A stretch of DNA of 30,180 bases from positions 1 through 30,180 of IMG/VR virus record IMGVR_UViG_3300023061_000424, one strand, 5' to 3'. Both the position numbers and the translations under genes were made by a program. Shown piece by piece: positions 384-23,664 of this stretch (position 1 is the first letter of the stretch; every line of letters begins with the position of its first letter). This DNA is from a virus. The notes beneath the pieces are model-generated. The model worked only from the letters and a program-made list of their open reading frames with translations, did not search any database and was not told the origin of the DNA.

Positions 384-965
384 TTAATTAATTATTTTTG
401 TTAATGCTTTTTCAATAGACCAATTATAATTTACCAATCTCATTCCCAATGTACTTCTTTTAAGCCCTGTCTGTTTTGCCCACTCACTGATTGTTTTTGC
501 TATGCCATTGAAAGTAATATGTAAAGCTTCTTCGATATTTTTAGTATTATTTGCTTGTTCTTTTTTTGTCGCCCATCTACAATTTCTTAGACAATAATTA
601 CCATTATTATCAATTCTATCTAATGTTAAACCGTCTTTACATGTCATTGCCATATCATCAAAAAAATTCTTAAAAGTATTCCATCTTTTACAGACTGTAA
701 TGCCTCTACCTCCATATCTACAAAATCCTTTAGCACTAGGATTATTACAACGACTAAGCATATTCGACCATACTCGATAAATATGAGACTGATATAATTT
801 TTTATCGTAAACTTGTCCATTTTTATATCTATGTTTATTGCCTAATATAGAACAGGACCTGCAATATCCTGTATTCTTACCAGTTTTAATTAAAAAAATC
901 ATACTATGAGATACCTTTCTTATCTTTTTACAAAGAGGGCATTTTATTTCAATTTTATCTGCCAT
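384..965 (-). CDS. HNH homing endonuclease with zinc ribbon and C-terminal helix-turn-helix
   Basis: This 193-residue protein probably cuts phage DNA at a specific site to promote its own spread. An N-terminal zinc ribbon has Cys at 9, 12, 35 and 38. The core matches phage HNH enzymes: YGGRGITVC near 84-92, then LDRIDNNGNY at 115-124 and NCRWATKKEQANN at 128-140. These carry the conserved Asp/Asn and NCRW signature of this family. The C-terminal part (about 150-190) reads like a NUMOD1-type helix-turn-helix (FNGIAKTISEWAKQTGLKRS). It sits between tRNA-Thr and a tail-fibre gene as a free-standing gene with no visible intron. The start at 965 fits the local AAAAAATATG leader. Confidence 0.88.
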   Translation of the reverse strand: MADKIEIKCPLCKKIRKVSHSMIFLIKTGKNTGYCRSCSILGNKHRYKNGQVYDKKLYQSHIYRVWSNMLSRCNNPSAKGFCRYGGRGITVCKRWNTFKNFFDDMAMTCKDGLTLDRIDNNGNYCLRNCRWATKKEQANNTKNIEEALHITFNGIAKTISEWAKQTGLKRSTLGMRLVNYNWSIEKALTKIIN

Positions 966-1071: not shown

Positions 1072-1132
1072 TTTGTTTAAAATTAATTCATTTCACTTTT
1101 ATGTTAAAAATAATACAAAAACGAAATGAAAG

Positions 1133-1163
1133 GTGGGGGAGTTTGTTTTAGCAGTTCCCCCAC
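1133..1163 (-). terminator. Terminator-like hairpin after the small-gene cassette
   Basis: GTGGGGGA at 1133-1140 pairs perfectly with TCCCCCAC at 1156-1163 around a 15-nt loop. On the minus strand the stem is followed by CTTTCATTTCGTTTTTG, a broken T-rich tract, so it could act as an intrinsic terminator between the membrane peptide gene and tRNA-Thr. An alternative, mutually exclusive pairing of AGCAG with CTGCT (1151-1170) uses part of the same sequence. Confidence 0.6.
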
Positions 1164-1170
1164 TCTGCTT

Positions 1171-1257
1171 TTAGTTTCTATGCTTGTGTTGTGCCCTTAA
1201 AAAAGACACCAATGCAATTACAATCAGAATAGATATAAAAATAAGAATTGCTTTCAT
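1171..1257 (-). CDS. 28-residue single-span membrane peptide
   Basis: A very small gene. It encodes Met-Lys, then about 20 hydrophobic residues (AILIFISILIVIALVSF), then a short basic tail (LRAQHKHRN), as in a single-pass membrane peptide with a charged end. A strong AGGAGG at 1265-1270 lies 7 nt before the ATG at 1257, which decides the start over the in-frame ATG at 1263 (only 1 nt away). The ribosome site lies inside the last codons of the upstream zinc-ribbon gene, so translation is probably coupled. The function is unknown; small toxic or lysis-regulating peptides look like this, but nothing proves it. Confidence 0.62.
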   Translation of the reverse strand: MKAILIFISILIVIALVSFLRAQHKHRN

Positions 1258-1259
1258 TT

Positions 1260-2906: not shown

Positions 2907-3674
2907 TTATATATTAGCATGATATATTAGTTCTGCTTGGGTTCTTGCAAAAACAGCATCTTTAAAATTTGTAAAATATCCCAAATGTATTTGTTTTTTA
3001 TCATAACTTAACCAAGCTCGCCATTTTTTATCTCGTTTATACCAAGAAACTCCTGCTATTCCTGATTTATTATTTGGTCTTATCATCCCCCTGTGTGTAG
3101 CTGATATTTTTTCTTTTGATTCTTTTGTCCATTCGTGTTGTAAATTATTAATTCTTTTTATTCTTTCCTTTTTTGTCATATTATCCCATACCTTTTTGCC
3201 ACTTTTACTCATATTCTTTTTAGTAATATCACTTGCCTTTTTCCCTTTCAATGCTAATGATATTTTAATTCCTGCTTTTTTCCTTATTTCAGGATTTCTA
3301 TTTTTCAATGCTATTTTAATTTTTCTAATACTTTCTTTTTTATGTTTGAATCCTTTTTCTCGTCCATCCCCTCCATTCGTTTCATTAGTTAATAATAAGT
3401 TTTTAGATTTAAAATGATTAATCCAATATTTTTCTTTCTTTTGCCATTCTGAATTATCTATTTTTTCTAAAATAATTAATTTAGGTTTCAAACCTTTTGC
3501 TAATAATTTCTTTATCCAACGAGTTTTATGACTATTAGAATTTAACTCATATTTAATATGACGCATAAACCTAGCATCCAAATCAATAGTTTTTCCAACA
3601 TATCTTATTTTTTTAATTATCGGACATTCAAGTCCATAAATATAACAATCTTCTACTTTACATATTTTCTTCAT
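2907..3674 (-). CDS. GIY-YIG homing endonuclease with C-terminal AP2-like domain
   Basis: A 255-residue endonuclease. The GIY-YIG core starts with YIYGL at 11-15 and RYVGKT at 24-29, followed by Arg35/His39 in DLDARFMRHI as expected. Lys-rich NUMOD3-like segments fill about 110-190 (KHKKESIRKIKIALK and similar). The last part (about 203-255) reads SGIAGVSWYKRDKKWRAW and then IHLGYFTNFKDA, an AP2-type DNA-binding domain. These parts suggest site-specific DNA cutting to spread the gene. It stands between two glycosyltransferase-type genes, 15 bp from one and 5 bp from the other, with no sign that either is broken. Confidence 0.88.
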   Translation of the reverse strand: MKKICKVEDCYIYGLECPIIKKIRYVGKTIDLDARFMRHIKYELNSNSHKTRWIKKLLAKGLKPKLIILEKIDNSEWQKKEKYWINHFKSKNLLLTNETNGGDGREKGFKHKKESIRKIKIALKNRNPEIRKKAGIKISLALKGKKASDITKKNMSKSGKKVWDNMTKKERIKRINNLQHEWTKESKEKISATHRGMIRPNNKSGIAGVSWYKRDKKWRAWLSYDKKQIHLGYFTNFKDAVFARTQAELIYHANI

Positions 3675-4418: not shown

Positions 4419-5294
4419 TTACTTTAATTTTTTATTCCACGATATATTACCTTTTTTAAATTCAGTATTTGGTGAAGAATGCTTTCCTTTTCTTGCCTCA
4501 CTTAATTTTCTTTTACATTCTTCAGAACGATGTTTACCTTTATTTGCTATACTTATTTTTCTTTTTGATTCCTCGGAAAGCTTGAGACCCTTATGAGATT
4601 TACTCATTTTTTTTCTTATATCTTCAGAAAGTATTATTCCTTTTCTATTAGAAATTCTTCCCTTACTGGATTTACTTATTTTTTCTCTAGTCTCTTTAGA
4701 TATAATTCTACCTAAATTATTTTTACTAATTTTTTTTCTTGTCTCTTCACTAACAATTCTCCCTTTACTTGCCTCACCTATTTTTCTCTTATGTTCTTCC
4801 GTAAATTTTATACCCTTACGACTTTCTGACATTTTTTTTCTTGTCTCTATAGATGCTTTTTTACCCTTATTTTTTCCAATATTATTAATTCTAATTTTCA
4901 TTTTAGTTTCTTCTGTATGATGTTTACCAGTCCACCTTCCTTTACTTTTTAAACCAATCTTTATTTTTGTTTCTTCCGAATGCATTCTACCTAGTGTTGA
5001 ACCAGCAGTTAAACATATATTATAAATATTTTCTCTTCCATATCTAATCATTAGAGCATCAATAGTAAGTTGTTCATAAAATATTAAATCTTTTATTTTA
5101 CATTCTAAATATTTTTCAAAAGAAAAATTATCTTTTCCGTCTTTATTCCATGCTCCCTGTAAATGAACATTACAATGAATATTTTTATTTAATGCCCTGA
5201 TATGTTCATAAAATCTTTTTTCAATATTAACAGCCGAACCAATATAAATTTTATTATTAATTAAATTTTTAATTATATATATTCCAGACTTCAT
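4419..5294 (-). CDS. GIY-YIG homing endonuclease with tandem NUMOD3 motifs
   Basis: A 291-residue protein. The catalytic GIY-YIG domain is in the first 90 residues: GIYIIKN at 4-10, KIYIGSA near 15-21, KRFYEHI near 26-32, and the later WNKDGKDNFSFE. The rest is an array of about eight NUMOD3 DNA-contact motifs of the type SEETKxKIxxxxKGR, giving a very Lys/Ser-rich tail that ends SPNTEFKKGNISWNKKLK. Such arrays track along the DNA target. The gene stands alone in the glycosyltransferase cluster, downstream of a methyltransferase gene. The start at 5294 lacks the usual AATATG leader (it reads GTGAATTATG). Confidence 0.92.
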   Translation of the reverse strand: MKSGIYIIKNLINNKIYIGSAVNIEKRFYEHIRALNKNIHCNVHLQGAWNKDGKDNFSFEKYLECKIKDLIFYEQLTIDALMIRYGRENIYNICLTAGSTLGRMHSEETKIKIGLKSKGRWTGKHHTEETKMKIRINNIGKNKGKKASIETRKKMSESRKGIKFTEEHKRKIGEASKGRIVSEETRKKISKNNLGRIISKETREKISKSSKGRISNRKGIILSEDIRKKMSKSHKGLKLSEESKRKISIANKGKHRSEECKRKLSEARKGKHSSPNTEFKKGNISWNKKLK

Positions 5295-9573: not shown

Positions 9574-10398
9574 TTAAATATTGTCTTTTTCCCACTTAGG
9601 TAATAATTCATTCTTATAATAATCTTCAAACATATTTATTGATGCCATCCAACTTGCTTCTCTATTAGACGGATTTTCTGGAGAACCCTCCTGATGCGTT
9701 CTAGAGAACGATCGATGTTTGTGACTATAAAATGTGTTTTTTGTTAATAAAAGTTTTCCTCCAGCTTTCCATACTGCCATACAAACTTCTACAGAGTCCT
9801 GATAGGTTGGTCCGAAAATATCTGTTCTTAATTCTCCTATTAGTTCATCCCACAATTTTTTTGGCATTACCCAAAAACTGCCCTGGATTGCTTGGTTTTC
9901 ATCTACCATAATATCTGCTCTTTTTCTTGTTTTACTTCTCCATTTCTGTCCAGAGAATTTACGAATACCATTTCCCATGTCTTGAATAACTAATCTCTCA
10001 TAGTCTACATAACCATGTTCTTTCATTATTTCCCACTTAACAGGATCTAAAAAATATCTACGAGGAGAAATTATTGTATTTGGTAAACATTCGTCTGTAA
10101 GGATTCGATCATACCCTTTTCCAAATAAACAGTGCTCGTCAAGTCTTCCTACAAACTCACCTCTAGCAATGGCCATACCTGCGTTTATAGCGCCCCTCAT
10201 GCCACGATTGGACCCTAAGTGGACTATCCTAACCCTCCTGTCGCTTTTAAGCGGTATTTGTGGCCATCTAGCGTCAAGTACAACTATAACCTCTAAAGCG
10301 TCACCAAGCTCCGAACTCTCTAATAAAGAGTCGACTGTTTGTTGCAGATACTGATCTGCATATGATGGAATTACTACGGATAATTTTATATCACTCAT
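9574..10398 (-). CDS. Family 2 glycosyltransferase (274 aa)
   Basis: The N-terminus LSVVIPSYADQYLQQTVDSL is the GT2 opening motif. VIVVLDARWP and SNRGMRGAINAGMAIARG (63-80) continue the nucleotide-binding half. FVGRLDEHC (82-90) is the metal-binding strand, with Asp87 and Glu88, similar in form to IIKCDAHC of the enzyme at 1896-2891. The acceptor half has IQGSFWVMPKKLWDEL and TYQDSVEVCMAVWKAGGKLL. It is the first gene of the sugar cluster, after a 110-nt untranslated stretch with a predicted pseudoknot. Confidence 0.88.
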   Translation of the reverse strand: MSDIKLSVVIPSYADQYLQQTVDSLLESSELGDALEVIVVLDARWPQIPLKSDRRVRIVHLGSNRGMRGAINAGMAIARGEFVGRLDEHCLFGKGYDRILTDECLPNTIISPRRYFLDPVKWEIMKEHGYVDYERLVIQDMGNGIRKFSGQKWRSKTRKRADIMVDENQAIQGSFWVMPKKLWDELIGELRTDIFGPTYQDSVEVCMAVWKAGGKLLLTKNTFYSHKHRSFSRTHQEGSPENPSNREASWMASINMFEDYYKNELLPKWEKDNI

Positions 10399-10431
10399 AT
10401 TTATTTTTATATTATTTATTTACATAACAAA

Positions 10432-10500
10432 GTAGAGCACCCCAAATACAGGGGACCGTGAGGAACCTGCACTTGAAAATGCTCTACGCTGTTCACGGTC
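10432..10500 (-). ncRNA. Intergenic RNA with interleaved 8-bp pairings (pseudoknot)
   Basis: Two perfect 8-bp complementarities are interleaved. GACCGTGA (10454-10461) pairs with TCACGGTC (10493-10500), and GTAGAGCA (10432-10439) pairs with TGCTCTAC (10480-10487). A small CCC/GGG hairpin (10441-10443 with 10451-10453) lies between them. In the minus-strand RNA the order is stem 1, 5-nt linker, stem 2, 18-nt segment, stem 1', hairpin, stem 2', which cannot fold without a pseudoknot if both stems form. It sits between the holin-like gene and the first glycosyltransferase. No known riboswitch or ribozyme class fits. Confidence 0.65.
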
Positions 10501-10508
10501 ATTATATT

Positions 10509-10712
10509 TTATTTTTTTCCAATACCCAATTTAGCCATTCCACCCTTAAAAATACTTACGACTACACTCTCTTTTCTACCTAATAAATAGGCAACTAACG
10601 CAGTTAATACTGGAACTAATACTTCTACACTCTCACCTATATATAATAGCACAAGTACACCGACTAAACAGATAGCCGTAATTGTGCCAATAATAGCATC
10701 AATTTTTAACAT
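10509..10712 (-). CDS. Holin-like two-span membrane protein (67 aa)
   Basis: Two hydrophobic segments are visible, IIGTITAICLVGVLVLLYIG (about 7-26) and VEVLVPVLTALVAYLLG (about 29-45). A Lys-rich tail (GGMAKLGIGKK) follows. Size, topology and position next to a probable cell-wall-active peptidase and an XhlA-like protein fit a holin that opens the cytoplasmic membrane at lysis. Membrane peptides of this size are not specific, so the call rests mainly on context. The gene contains a near-copy of the phage promoter motif in its codons. Confidence 0.6.
   Translation of the reverse strand: MLKIDAIIGTITAICLVGVLVLLYIGESVEVLVPVLTALVAYLLGRKESVVVSIFKGGMAKLGIGKK
10643..10657 (-). promoter_or_regulatory. 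Possible extended -10 promoter inside the holin-like gene
   Basis: The minus strand reads TACTTGTGCTATTATATATA, differing in one base from the promoter block at 1863-1883 (TATTAT instead of TATAAT). It would start RNA about 240 nt ahead of the first glycosyltransferase gene, passing through the pseudoknot region. Because it is translated as LVLLYIG, chance similarity in AT-rich coding sequence remains possible. Confidence 0.35.
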
Positions 10713-12037: not shown

Positions 12038-12102
12038 TTGTTTAATCTAAAAATTAATCAATGCTTCAGTGCTTATGAAAAACAATTCAGCAAATTCTTA
12101 TA

Positions 12103-12132
12103 TCTAGGGGTAGGTTCTAAGCTACCCCTAGA
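12103..12132 (-). terminator. Perfect 11-bp hairpin after the Ser-rich protein gene
   Basis: TCTAGGGGTAG (12103-12113) pairs perfectly with CTACCCCTAGA (12122-12132) around an 8-nt loop. It lies 21 bp past the stop of 12153-13175. There is no T-tract on the minus strand, so it may slow or partly end transcription, or protect the mRNA end, rather than act as a textbook terminator. Confidence 0.5.
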
Positions 12133-12152
12133 CACTAACATCTTTGATAATA

Positions 12153-13758: not shown

Positions 13759-13795
13759 ATTTTTTTCTTCATAATAATAAATTAATATTACAAGC

Positions 13796-13815
13796 GGAGG
13801 GGTTTTACCCCCTCC
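13796..13815 (-). terminator. GC-rich hairpin between head genes
   Basis: GGAGGGG (13796-13802) pairs with CCCCTCC (13809-13815) around a 6-nt loop, 10 bp past the stop of the 242-residue protein. There is no downstream T-tract. It resembles the stable stems after the capsid gene and after the Ser-rich protein gene, so mRNA 3'-end protection or partial termination is plausible. Confidence 0.45.
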
Positions 13816-13824
13816 ACAAATAAT

Positions 13825-14553: not shown

Positions 14554-14666
14554 ATTTTTTTATTTAGTAGGTAAACTACGGTAGATTACCCGCTACCTGG
14601 TCGGGATGACAGACAAACTGCCATGAGAGTGTATTTAACCGTCCTCACTCCCGTCGGACTCTGCCC

Positions 14667-14709
14667 GGGAGGTGGTTTAAAAAGGACCACCTCCCATAAA
14701 GACTTTATG
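14667..14709 (-). terminator. Paired hairpins just after the major capsid gene
   Basis: CATAAAG (14695-14701) pairs with CTTTATG (14703-14709). GGGAGGTGGT (14667-14676) pairs perfectly with ACCACCTCCC (14686-14695) around a 9-nt loop. In minus-strand RNA they begin 15 nt past the capsid stop and are followed by GC-rich sequence without a T-tract. The 170-nt gap to the next gene holds no ORF. Partial termination or RNA protection to give extra capsid mRNA is the likely role. Confidence 0.5.
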
Positions 14710-14723
14710 TAAAAATACTCAAT

Positions 14724-21102: not shown

Positions 21103-23664
21103 TTAGTATGAGAATGATTTTGGTAAATAAAGGCTATTGTCTATCTGTTCTAATTTTCCTGAATAAAGTGTCTTAAATCCCTGGAAACCGATAGCTGCCG
21201 AAAATATGCTATCATCATGAAAAGTTTTACTCTCTGGTCTCATGTTATCATTATCGTCATAAATAAAGACTGACATTTCATCTATTAAAATTTTACTATG
21301 TATTGTTAGTACTCCATCTCTTAGCGCTTTAGCATATTCACTTATCATTAATGGTCTAGTAATTCTAGTTGTTCTCCAACCGAGTTTATCTGTCATTGAT
21401 GAACCAAGTGATTCAAATTTATTCGGTCTGAAATAAAGATTTGGATATGCTTTCTGTTTTAATATTGTTAATGTAGTAAGACCTTGATTATTTATTTCTG
21501 GAACCATGTAGGAATTATTATATCTTCTACCCCACTTATCTAGTAAATCACCAAATCTGTCTGGTGCAATATATCCTCTATACATTGCAACTTCTTCACC
21601 TGTTTTTCTATCCCAGATAATAGCTACAGAATAGTCACCACCAGATACACCATCAGATACATCCGCTCCGGTAACGTATATTCCTTCTTCTTCTGGTTCT
21701 TTGTAAATAACCCATCCTTCTTCTTCGTAGACTTTATGTTCATCATTCATATCTCCAATGTCCAATAAATTCTTTCTTTGGCTATCTATAATCTTTTGTT
21801 CAAAGACTGACCGACCAGATTGTAAGAATGAACATTTGTACTCTTGAGCGAATATTTGTGGGTCATTAACTTCACGTTCTATTTGTTTAATTTGTTTTTC
21901 CGAATATCCCCACCAGTAATCATATCTTTTCTTTACCCAATCATTTTCTTCGGTCCACATTCTATGGTACAAACCACCTACGCCTTTTGGCGAACTCTCT
22001 ATTACAAACGTTCCACCAAGTGGTATAGCAGGCATTAAAGATGCCATCTTTTCTTCTGCCTTATCAAGCTTTGAAAGTTCTGTCAAGAGGCAATTGTGGA
22101 CTACTCCGGATGTTGTTAAAAAACTATGTGGTTCTTTCTCTAATGCTATATCATAAACAAATTCTTCATGTTGAGATGATCCTATTCTCTTTATCCTTGC
22201 CCAATAATGAAATCTACCCCTACGCCAATATCCATGTCCTTGATTTGCAGTCGGTTGATGTTTTAATCTATATCTAGCTCTACCATTATTATATACTGGC
22301 AATTCAAATCCAAGTTTTCTTCTTAATTTATAATTTCCTTTTCCACCTAACATTAAATCATATCTTGGTCTACTCTTTACTCCATATCTATATACGTCTT
22401 CTTTATAATAAATATTAGCTAAACCGATTCTTAAAGAAATTAATAATTTCTTTAATTGATATATAAGCTGACCATTAACTGATGTAAATACAGCTATATC
22501 TGTTTTTGTTAAACAACCATCACCAAGAAATAATCCTTTTAACATTCCATATGAAAATTGCCAACCCCATTCCCATACAGAATCATTAATAAACTTATCA
22601 TCACATTTCTTTCCAAATTTTTCTCCAATAAACCTAGAAAAATTTACACCGTATAAAACAATAGTAGCAGATTTACTTACTTTAGAATATTGAACATTTA
22701 CACTCCTAACATTTTTAATGATACTCTTATTAATAACTTCCATCACATATGGAACTTCATCACGATGAATCGATATTGTTATTTTTCCATAACTACTTGT
22801 TCCTTCTGATAAATACCAACCAATGAATTCTCCAAAATCAAAATTAATATCTATTTCATTATCTTCTACAAGATCACCCTGAATTTTTTTATTCTCAAAT
22901 TTTATTTTATTACACCTACTTCTACATTGATAATATGGATAAGCAACATAATCTTTTTTAGTAATATCTTTAGCTTCTTTCCATACTCCTTTACTATTAT
23001 CTTCTAAAGTTCCTCGTACTAATACTTTATGGTCTTCAGTAAGGACTAAGTCTTCAGTACCATAGATGCTTATCCTTAGCATCTTCTTTTCATTTTTATT
23101 TTTGATTATTTTTTTTACTTTACTTGGACCACCAATACCATTAATAATTTTATCTCCTTCTTCTACATCTTTAATCTTTTTAGTAAAACCATTCTTAATA
23201 AATATATTAGTATTACCAGATAGGCAATTATGAATTGTATATCCGCTTCCTACATTCTCTGAAGATGGTAAAATTAATATCTTAGAATCCATCTTCGGAA
23301 AACTAATTTCATACTTAGAATTGTACTGTATAGTTGGTCTCAATGCTGCTGGTGTTGTCCTAATAAATGTTTTTATTTTATCTAATAACTCTGATACTAA
23401 ATCACTATTATATCCTATCAATGCTGACGTGATACCAACGTTCATTATGGTATTGACATAAAAATATCCAGCTACTGCGGTCGAAAATCCTAATTGTCTG
23501 CATTTCAAGATCATCACCCTTGTATTATCCCTGAGAGTATTAAACAAATCTTTCTGAGCTTCATTTAAAATGAACGGATGTAATCCACCCTTCTTTGTTT
23601 TTATTTTACAAAAATTCTCCAAATAGAATTTCGGGTCTCTTAATTTATCTAAATTTTCATTCAT
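21103..23664 (-). CDS. terL: Large terminase subunit with in-frame intein (853 aa precursor)
   Basis: This is the packaging motor: an ATPase plus a nuclease that cuts concatemeric DNA. Walker A is the deviant MILKCRQLGFSTAVAG (51-66). The Walker B strand CLLTELSKLD starts at Cys525, right after the intein. The coupling motif is FVIESSPKGVGG. The RNase H-like nuclease has VTGADVSDG, then MVPEINNQGL and a final FHDDSIFSAAIGF with paired Asp. Removing residues 147-524 leaves 475 residues, a normal length. The intein must splice for the ATPase to work, because it splits the domain between Walker A and B. The gene follows the small subunit by 5 bp. Confidence 0.93.
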   Translation of the reverse strand: MNENLDKLRDPKFYLENFCKIKTKKGGLHPFILNEAQKDLFNTLRDNTRVMILKCRQLGFSTAVAGYFYVNTIMNVGITSALIGYNSDLVSELLDKIKTFIRTTPAALRPTIQYNSKYEISFPKMDSKILILPSSENVGSGYTIHNCLSGNTNIFIKNGFTKKIKDVEEGDKIINGIGGPSKVKKIIKNKNEKKMLRISIYGTEDLVLTEDHKVLVRGTLEDNSKGVWKEAKDITKKDYVAYPYYQCRSRCNKIKFENKKIQGDLVEDNEIDINFDFGEFIGWYLSEGTSSYGKITISIHRDEVPYVMEVINKSIIKNVRSVNVQYSKVSKSATIVLYGVNFSRFIGEKFGKKCDDKFINDSVWEWGWQFSYGMLKGLFLGDGCLTKTDIAVFTSVNGQLIYQLKKLLISLRIGLANIYYKEDVYRYGVKSRPRYDLMLGGKGNYKLRRKLGFELPVYNNGRARYRLKHQPTANQGHGYWRRGRFHYWARIKRIGSSQHEEFVYDIALEKEPHSFLTTSGVVHNCLLTELSKLDKAEEKMASLMPAIPLGGTFVIESSPKGVGGLYHRMWTEENDWVKKRYDYWWGYSEKQIKQIEREVNDPQIFAQEYKCSFLQSGRSVFEQKIIDSQRKNLLDIGDMNDEHKVYEEEGWVIYKEPEEEGIYVTGADVSDGVSGGDYSVAIIWDRKTGEEVAMYRGYIAPDRFGDLLDKWGRRYNNSYMVPEINNQGLTTLTILKQKAYPNLYFRPNKFESLGSSMTDKLGWRTTRITRPLMISEYAKALRDGVLTIHSKILIDEMSVFIYDDNDNMRPESKTFHDDSIFSAAIGFQGFKTLYSGKLEQIDNSLYLPKSFSY
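22093..23226 (-). mobile_element. Intein with LAGLIDADG endonuclease domain (378 aa)
   Basis: The intein starts at Cys147 (CLSGNTNIFIKNG), has the block B TEDHKV, and ends VYDIALEKEPHSFLTTSG then VVHN, with Cys525 as the first extein residue. So all splice-site residues (Cys1, Thr-x-x-His, terminal His-Asn, Cys+1) are intact. Two LAGLIDADG helices are present, FGEFIGWYLSEGT (about 277-289, acid at Glu287) and YGMLKGLFLGDG (about 372-383, acid at Asp382), so the endonuclease may be active. The insertion point in the extein is TIHN/CLLTE, at the Walker B strand, a highly conserved site of the kind inteins favour. Confidence 0.95.

Follow-up and report, generated by a model that had tools for sequence, protein, structure and literature searches.

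The DNA analysed here (the window) comprises positions 1 to 30,180 of the virus record IMGVR_UViG_3300023061_000424. The gap of interest, at 10399-10508, is 110 nt long, as a preliminary description of the locus had given it, and separates the gene for a small membrane protein from a glycosyltransferase gene. The upstream protein had been described as holin-like. Pfam, PHROGs and NCBIfam return no identification for it and so give this identity no support, and the name holin must be regarded as unproven. Upstream of the start codons of the window genes the sequence is rich in A, with T at position -1, and a Shine-Dalgarno sequence is found in 3 of the 35 genes. A-rich starts with almost no Shine-Dalgarno resemble initiation of the Bacteroidota type, which suggests where the host may lie.

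Two perfect helices of 8 bp, here named P1 and P2, can be drawn on the coding (minus) strand of the gap, interleaved exactly as the preliminary description had reported. Read on the plus strand, GTAGAGCA (10432-10439) pairs exactly with TGCTCTAC (10480-10487), and GACCGTGA (10454-10461) pairs exactly with TCACGGTC (10493-10500). The flanking genes all lie on the minus strand, so the strand that had been described must be reverse-complemented to give the RNA of interest. The order of this RNA is 5'-GACCGUGA-ACAGC-GUAGAGCA-UUUUCAAGUGCAGGUUCC-UCACGGUC-CCCUGUAUUUGGGG-UGCUCUAC-3', and the parts are listed in Table 1.

Table 1. Features of the intergenic RNA element and its flanking genes in the window.
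Feature	Position	Strand	Evidence or remarks
Upstream gene, 67-aa small protein, apparently a two-helix membrane protein, called holin-like	10509..10712	-	
Whole element, match of covariance model R1	10424..10501	-	68.2 bits; the window is among the three training sequences of R1
P1 5' strand GACCGUGA, the 5' foot that can pair with the apical loop	10493..10500	-	pairs with 10454-10461
5-nt linker ACAGC	10488..10492	-	sequence; 4-9 nt in relatives
P2 5' strand GUAGAGCA, base of the long hairpin	10480..10487	-	pairs with 10432-10439
5' arm of P3 with the adjoining 5' side of the apical loop (18-nt linker of the preliminary description)	10462..10479	-	predicted pairing with 10440-10453
P1 3' strand UCACGGUC, inside the apical loop of the hairpin	10454..10461	-	
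P3 3' arm CCCUGUAUUUGGGG	10440..10453	-	predicted fold
P2 3' strand UGCUCUAC	10432..10439	-	sequence, pairing
U-rich 3' foot UUUGUUAU	10424..10431	-	sequence and alignment; U-rich in all four phages
Downstream gene, family-2 glycosyltransferase, with which the glycosylation genes begin	9574..10398	-	Pfam PF00535, E 4.4e-14

Two such matches had been considered unlikely to arise by chance. Across the window as a whole this does not hold: when the window was dinucleotide-shuffled 200 times, 189 of the shuffles contained at least one interleaved 8+8 pair spanning no more than 110 nt, and the 200 together contained 1464 such pairs, or about seven per window; the real window gives six listings. Within the gap itself it does hold, with interleaved 8+8 pairs in 9 and 10 of 20,000 shuffles (approximately 1 in 2,000). 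Since these pairs are frequent by chance in 30 kb, the pattern alone is weaker evidence than had been thought. The predicted folding energy of the sense strand of the gap is -34.7 kcal/mol (z -5.6 relative to shuffles), compared with -22.9 kcal/mol (z -2.1) for the other strand, and the gap has the lowest z-score among the intergenic gaps of the window that are at least 40 nt long.

The element is also found in three distant relatives, whose capsid proteins are 59-67% identical to that of the window and whose small membrane proteins are 27-31% identical. In all four phages it follows the same small membrane-protein gene and precedes a glycosyltransferase gene, which is the placement originally noted. 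The downstream gene itself differs, being a family-2 glycosyltransferase in the window and an unrelated protein of about 480 residues in the relatives. The relative L068 (contig IMGVR_UViG_3300035698_007650) was reached by a search with this protein of about 480 residues, and its copy (AAUCGUGGG...AUGAAAAC...CCCACGAUU...GUUUUCAU) was first spotted by eye. L097 (contig IMGVR_UViG_3300005935_000111) was reached through the capsid protein, and carries AAUCGUGGG...AUGAAGAC...CCCACGAUU...GUUUUCAU. With the portal protein as query, 42 loci at 56-70% identity were obtained, among them G015 (contig IMGVR_UViG_3300033145_002224, loci L049, L058, L067 and L110), in which the gap after the membrane-protein homologue reads UAAUCGUG-UAUAAAAUU-AAACUUCUC-...-CACGAUUA-...-GAGAAGUUU, with the same topology and different stems. 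A search with the glycosyltransferase gene gave one distant locus, which lacks the element.

Among the loci scanned with its profile, this subfamily of membrane proteins occurs only in these four phages, and in all of them the element follows directly. A scan for stem pairs over all loci without restriction gave many chance matches; limited to intergenic gaps, it placed L097, the window and G015 among the top five. In L014 and L031, which are close relatives, the gene order is unchanged, but the gap is only 20-30 nt long and lacks the element, which is thus not essential. No copy was found at the corresponding junction, or before a related glycosyltransferase, in L001, L014, L031, L050, L053, L071 or L072.

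A covariance model, R1, was built from the window, L068 and L097 only, and was run against both strands of 84 loci (1.03 Mb). It recovers G015, on which it had not been trained, with 28.3 bits and an E value of 0.0034, and nothing else in the 84 loci rises above noise. The whole contigs behind 23 of the loci contain no further convincing match. Weak matches in G023 and G031 (E 0.02-0.08) were rejected, there being nothing comparable at those places.

In the model alignment of the four phages, which was fitted to the P2/P3 structure, in which three of the four rows trained the model, and in which P1 lies outside the fitted structure and is written as a pseudoknot, 91.5% of cells are paired and 12 of 30 pairs have changed on both sides. 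The covariation score of this alignment was reached by none of 500 shuffles, and sliding the partner strand by 1-3 columns reduces the paired cells to 38-54%. With each phage in its own register, all 32 cells of P2 are paired and all eight of its pairs show double changes. In P1, again in own registers, 31 of 32 cells are paired, and three of the eight pairs show double changes around an invariant CGUG/CACG core. These three all separate the window from L068 and L097, and two of them also separate it from G015; they therefore mark the branch of the window, so that support for P1 is good, though it comes mostly from one branch. Compensatory changes in homologous gaps were the test that the preliminary description had itself put forward, and both stems have come through it. 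The sense strand has 27 G.U pairs and no 1x1 A.C mismatches, and the antisense folds are much weaker. This surplus of G.U without A.C, together with the weak antisense folds, points to selection on the mRNA strand, and the sequences and predicted folds indicate that it is the sense-strand RNA on which selection acts. The structured RNA originally suggested is thus supported by covariation, by fold energy and by conservation in three relatives. Because it is conserved in these relatives with matching base-pair changes, we conclude from the sequence comparison that the element is a real structured RNA, probably cis-acting in the phage mRNA.

The dominant predicted fold in all four phages is one long hairpin of about 22-30 bp, formed by P2 and the segments previously taken as linkers. 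The linker lengths of 5 and 18 nt were given correctly, but the 18-nt segment is not free: it is predicted to pair with the segment 10440-10453 (as P3), extending P2. A mini-hairpin had also been described, and CCCC (10440-10443) can indeed pair with GGGG (10451-10454), but this helix is not conserved and its bases pair elsewhere in the predicted fold. The long hairpin is nearly continuous in three of the phages, and is interrupted by small internal loops in G015. Its apical loop carries the 3' strand of P1 in all four (z -4.7 to -8.7), and in each of them the U-rich foot comes after the 3' strand of P2.

The two interleaved helices of an H-type pseudoknot are possible in every one of the four phages. 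In a nested energy model, which considers nested folds only, P1 and the full hairpin compete, and the long hairpin is better than folds containing P1 by about 10-22 kcal/mol. By a simple geometric estimate of our own, the 5' foot, which lies only a few nucleotides from the base of the stem, can reach the loop only when the stem is partly open. P1 would then probably be an alternative or early state, or depend on a partner.

The element is apparently undescribed. Rfam 15 contains no family that matches it at the gathering score, the only hit being a tRNA elsewhere in the window, and relaxed searches gave noise or nothing. No homologue was found by DNA similarity search of phage and plasmid collections, by tblastn of the small membrane protein against phage records, or with an exact 22-mer of the hairpin arm. 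The literature consulted, which was limited to open-licence papers and is weak evidence, contained no description. An exact-pattern scan of viral contigs with the stems of the window gave six matches, all in one unrelated coding locus, and a scan with the core of the first two copies (CGTG...GGTT..CACG) gave seven that lack the second helix; both sets were attributed to chance. A degenerate tRNA, an integron attC site and IS605-type ends were dropped on inspection, since no matching features were seen.

Judged by its sequence and layout, the element would work like an intergenic mRNA hairpin with a pseudoknot between its loop and its flank, and we set it in no named family. The hairpins cut by RNase III in T7-type early mRNAs are likewise long and imperfect, and lie between co-oriented genes on the mRNA strand. 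They differ from the present element, in which the apical loop can pair with the 5' foot through a conserved core, and no sequence relationship is known. With H-type pseudoknots the element shares two interleaved helices, P1 and P2, which compensatory changes have preserved, but the classical loops are short, whereas those seen here pair into a long hairpin that competes with P1. Flavivirus exoribonuclease-resistant RNAs (PMC5760640) also place a pseudoknot at a transcript junction, where it could protect one side from decay, but the element shows no three-way junction or ring and has no Rfam relation to them. Intrinsic terminators and attenuators likewise combine a hairpin with a U-rich stretch after it where operon parts meet, and differ from the present stem, which is long and not G+C-rich. 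Scans for a canonical terminator, a G+C-rich stem with a T run directly after it, gave nothing in any of the three relatives; the window yielded no more than an inner 5-bp stem.

On the basis of these observations, we tentatively favour a role for the element as an mRNA processing or stability boundary between the structural and lysis genes and the glycosylation genes, which we judge to have somewhat less than an even chance of being correct. Of the functions put forward in the preliminary description, it corresponds to the processing site between the two groups of mRNAs. It is ranked ahead of a translation-coupled attenuator and, in third place, a protein operator, on account of the position at the junction, the length of the stem, and the negative terminator, ribozyme and Rfam tests. 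RNase III typically acts on stems at least two helical turns long, and the predicted stem has about two turns or more and lies between co-oriented genes. The element would mark a boundary within a long co-transcript. A nuclease of RNase III type might cut the double-stranded stem, or the stem might shield the 3' end of the upstream message, and the structural and lysis genes could thereby reach different mRNA levels from the glycosyltransferase genes. P1 may pair first during transcription, as its loop half is transcribed ahead of the 3' arm of the stem, and in so doing would delay or limit the full hairpin and tune the boundary. The invariant CGUG/CACG core and the complementarity of loop and foot would not by themselves be explained by a processing site alone.

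The translation-coupled attenuator is given a distinctly lower probability. A ribosome finishing the membrane protein would cover P1, the full hairpin would form ahead of the U-rich foot, and transcription would partially terminate; with no ribosome there, P1 would hold the loop and transcription would read through into the glycosyltransferases. P1 does lie within or near the footprint of a terminating ribosome in three of the four phages, the U-rich foot is present in all four, and P1 competes with the full hairpin. The scans for terminators described above argue against it, as do stems that are long and rich in A+U and G.U, and the variable spacing from the upstream stop codon, P1 starting 8, 9, 11 and 21 nt past it in the four phages. 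More doubtful still is a two-state switch, in which the presence or absence of a ribosome finishing the membrane protein would determine which of the two forms, P1 pseudoknot or full hairpin, is adopted, linking translation of this protein to expression of the glycosylation genes; if true, this would represent an attenuator of a new kind, consisting of a single hairpin with a loop complementary to its own 5' foot. Placed between these two in our estimation, and rather unlikely, is an operator, where a phage or host protein would regulate how the glycosyltransferase is translated by binding either the hairpin and loop or the core of P1. The core of P1 is invariant while P2 varies, as expected of sequence-specific recognition, but there is no candidate protein, the glycosyltransferase start lies at a variable distance of about 20-35 nt downstream of the element, and the downstream genes differ.

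Other readings of the structure fare worse. The P1-P2-P1'-P2' order resembles that of a self-cleaving ribozyme of the HDV-like kind, and HDV-like theta ribozymes do occur in phages (PMC10879173). Set against the definition in that work, the four sequences on inspection lack the nested double pseudoknot with P3 and a catalytic C in J4/2: the P2-P1' segment pairs with the P1'-P2' segment, leaving no separate P3, there is no unpaired J4/2 with its C, no tRNA is adjacent and Rfam gives no match, so that a ribozyme is very improbable. Pseudoknot-driven recoding at the end of the membrane-protein gene, by readthrough or -1 frameshifting, is brought to mind by the end of this gene in the window, GGA AAA AAA TAA, which forms a slippery run; beyond it, neither the zero nor the -1 frame is interrupted within the element. 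In the three relatives these frames close within a few codons and no slippery run is present, and recoding is rejected for this reason as barely credible. In the window only, positions 10417-10512 (minus strand) hold the slippery A_AAA_AAA before the stop and two open frames, including a 28-codon ORF with an ATG start. This ORF was dropped, the frame being closed in the relatives and the peptide without a relative. An equally slight chance is given to fortuitous inverted repeats, or to a repeat acting at the DNA level such as a protein-binding site or the end of a mobile element. By chance, 30 kb will often contain interleaved 8+8 repeats, and the pattern matches found elsewhere were due to chance, but neither explanation accounts for compensatory changes in four phages or G.U pairs on one strand only, and the covariance-model search finds no second copy of the element in any of these genomes.

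The window contains a second and different conserved RNA, at about 14580-14661 on the minus strand, in the gap 14554-14723 that comes immediately after the gene for the SU10-type major capsid protein. It is found in more than 20 relatives, for example L093 (10325-10420), L094, L103, L114 and L115, with two copies in L098 and L102, and has no Rfam match. It has an apparent H-type pseudoknot at the 5' end, a hairpin, and a pseudoknot at the 3' end (roughly CCCGA..RRNCACGGGUNAUUGNYY) that is clearly H-type, with 96.5% of cells paired, double changes in seven of nine pairs, and no score as high in 500 shuffles. Strong perfect hairpins, mostly without T runs, lie in the gaps 12038-12152, 13759-13824 and 1072-1259 (minus strand) of the same operon; a 14-bp GUGUCUAGGGGUAG hairpin is an example.

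It is worth adding some observations on interrupted genes. The capsid genes of L018, L024, L047 and L049 are split into pieces about 0.5-1 kb apart, and a group I intron lies just upstream of the capsid-gene match in L102 (8903-9131). Reading of the translations shows an apparent intein in a large terminase-like ORF of 853 aa in the window (21103-23664, minus strand), with splice junctions CLSGNT...VVHNC, and ORFs resembling GIY-YIG and HNH homing endonucleases at 2907-3674, 4419-5294 and 384-965 (minus strand), two of them among the glycosylation genes.

The intergenic element thus adds, in a group of uncultured phages, an RNA that is supported by covariation and has no Rfam match. Its architecture makes it a concrete and testable candidate for separating expression of the structural and lysis genes from that of the glycosylation genes. 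Taken with the second conserved RNA, downstream of the capsid gene, it suggests that several structured elements, as yet undescribed, organise the mRNAs in this group.
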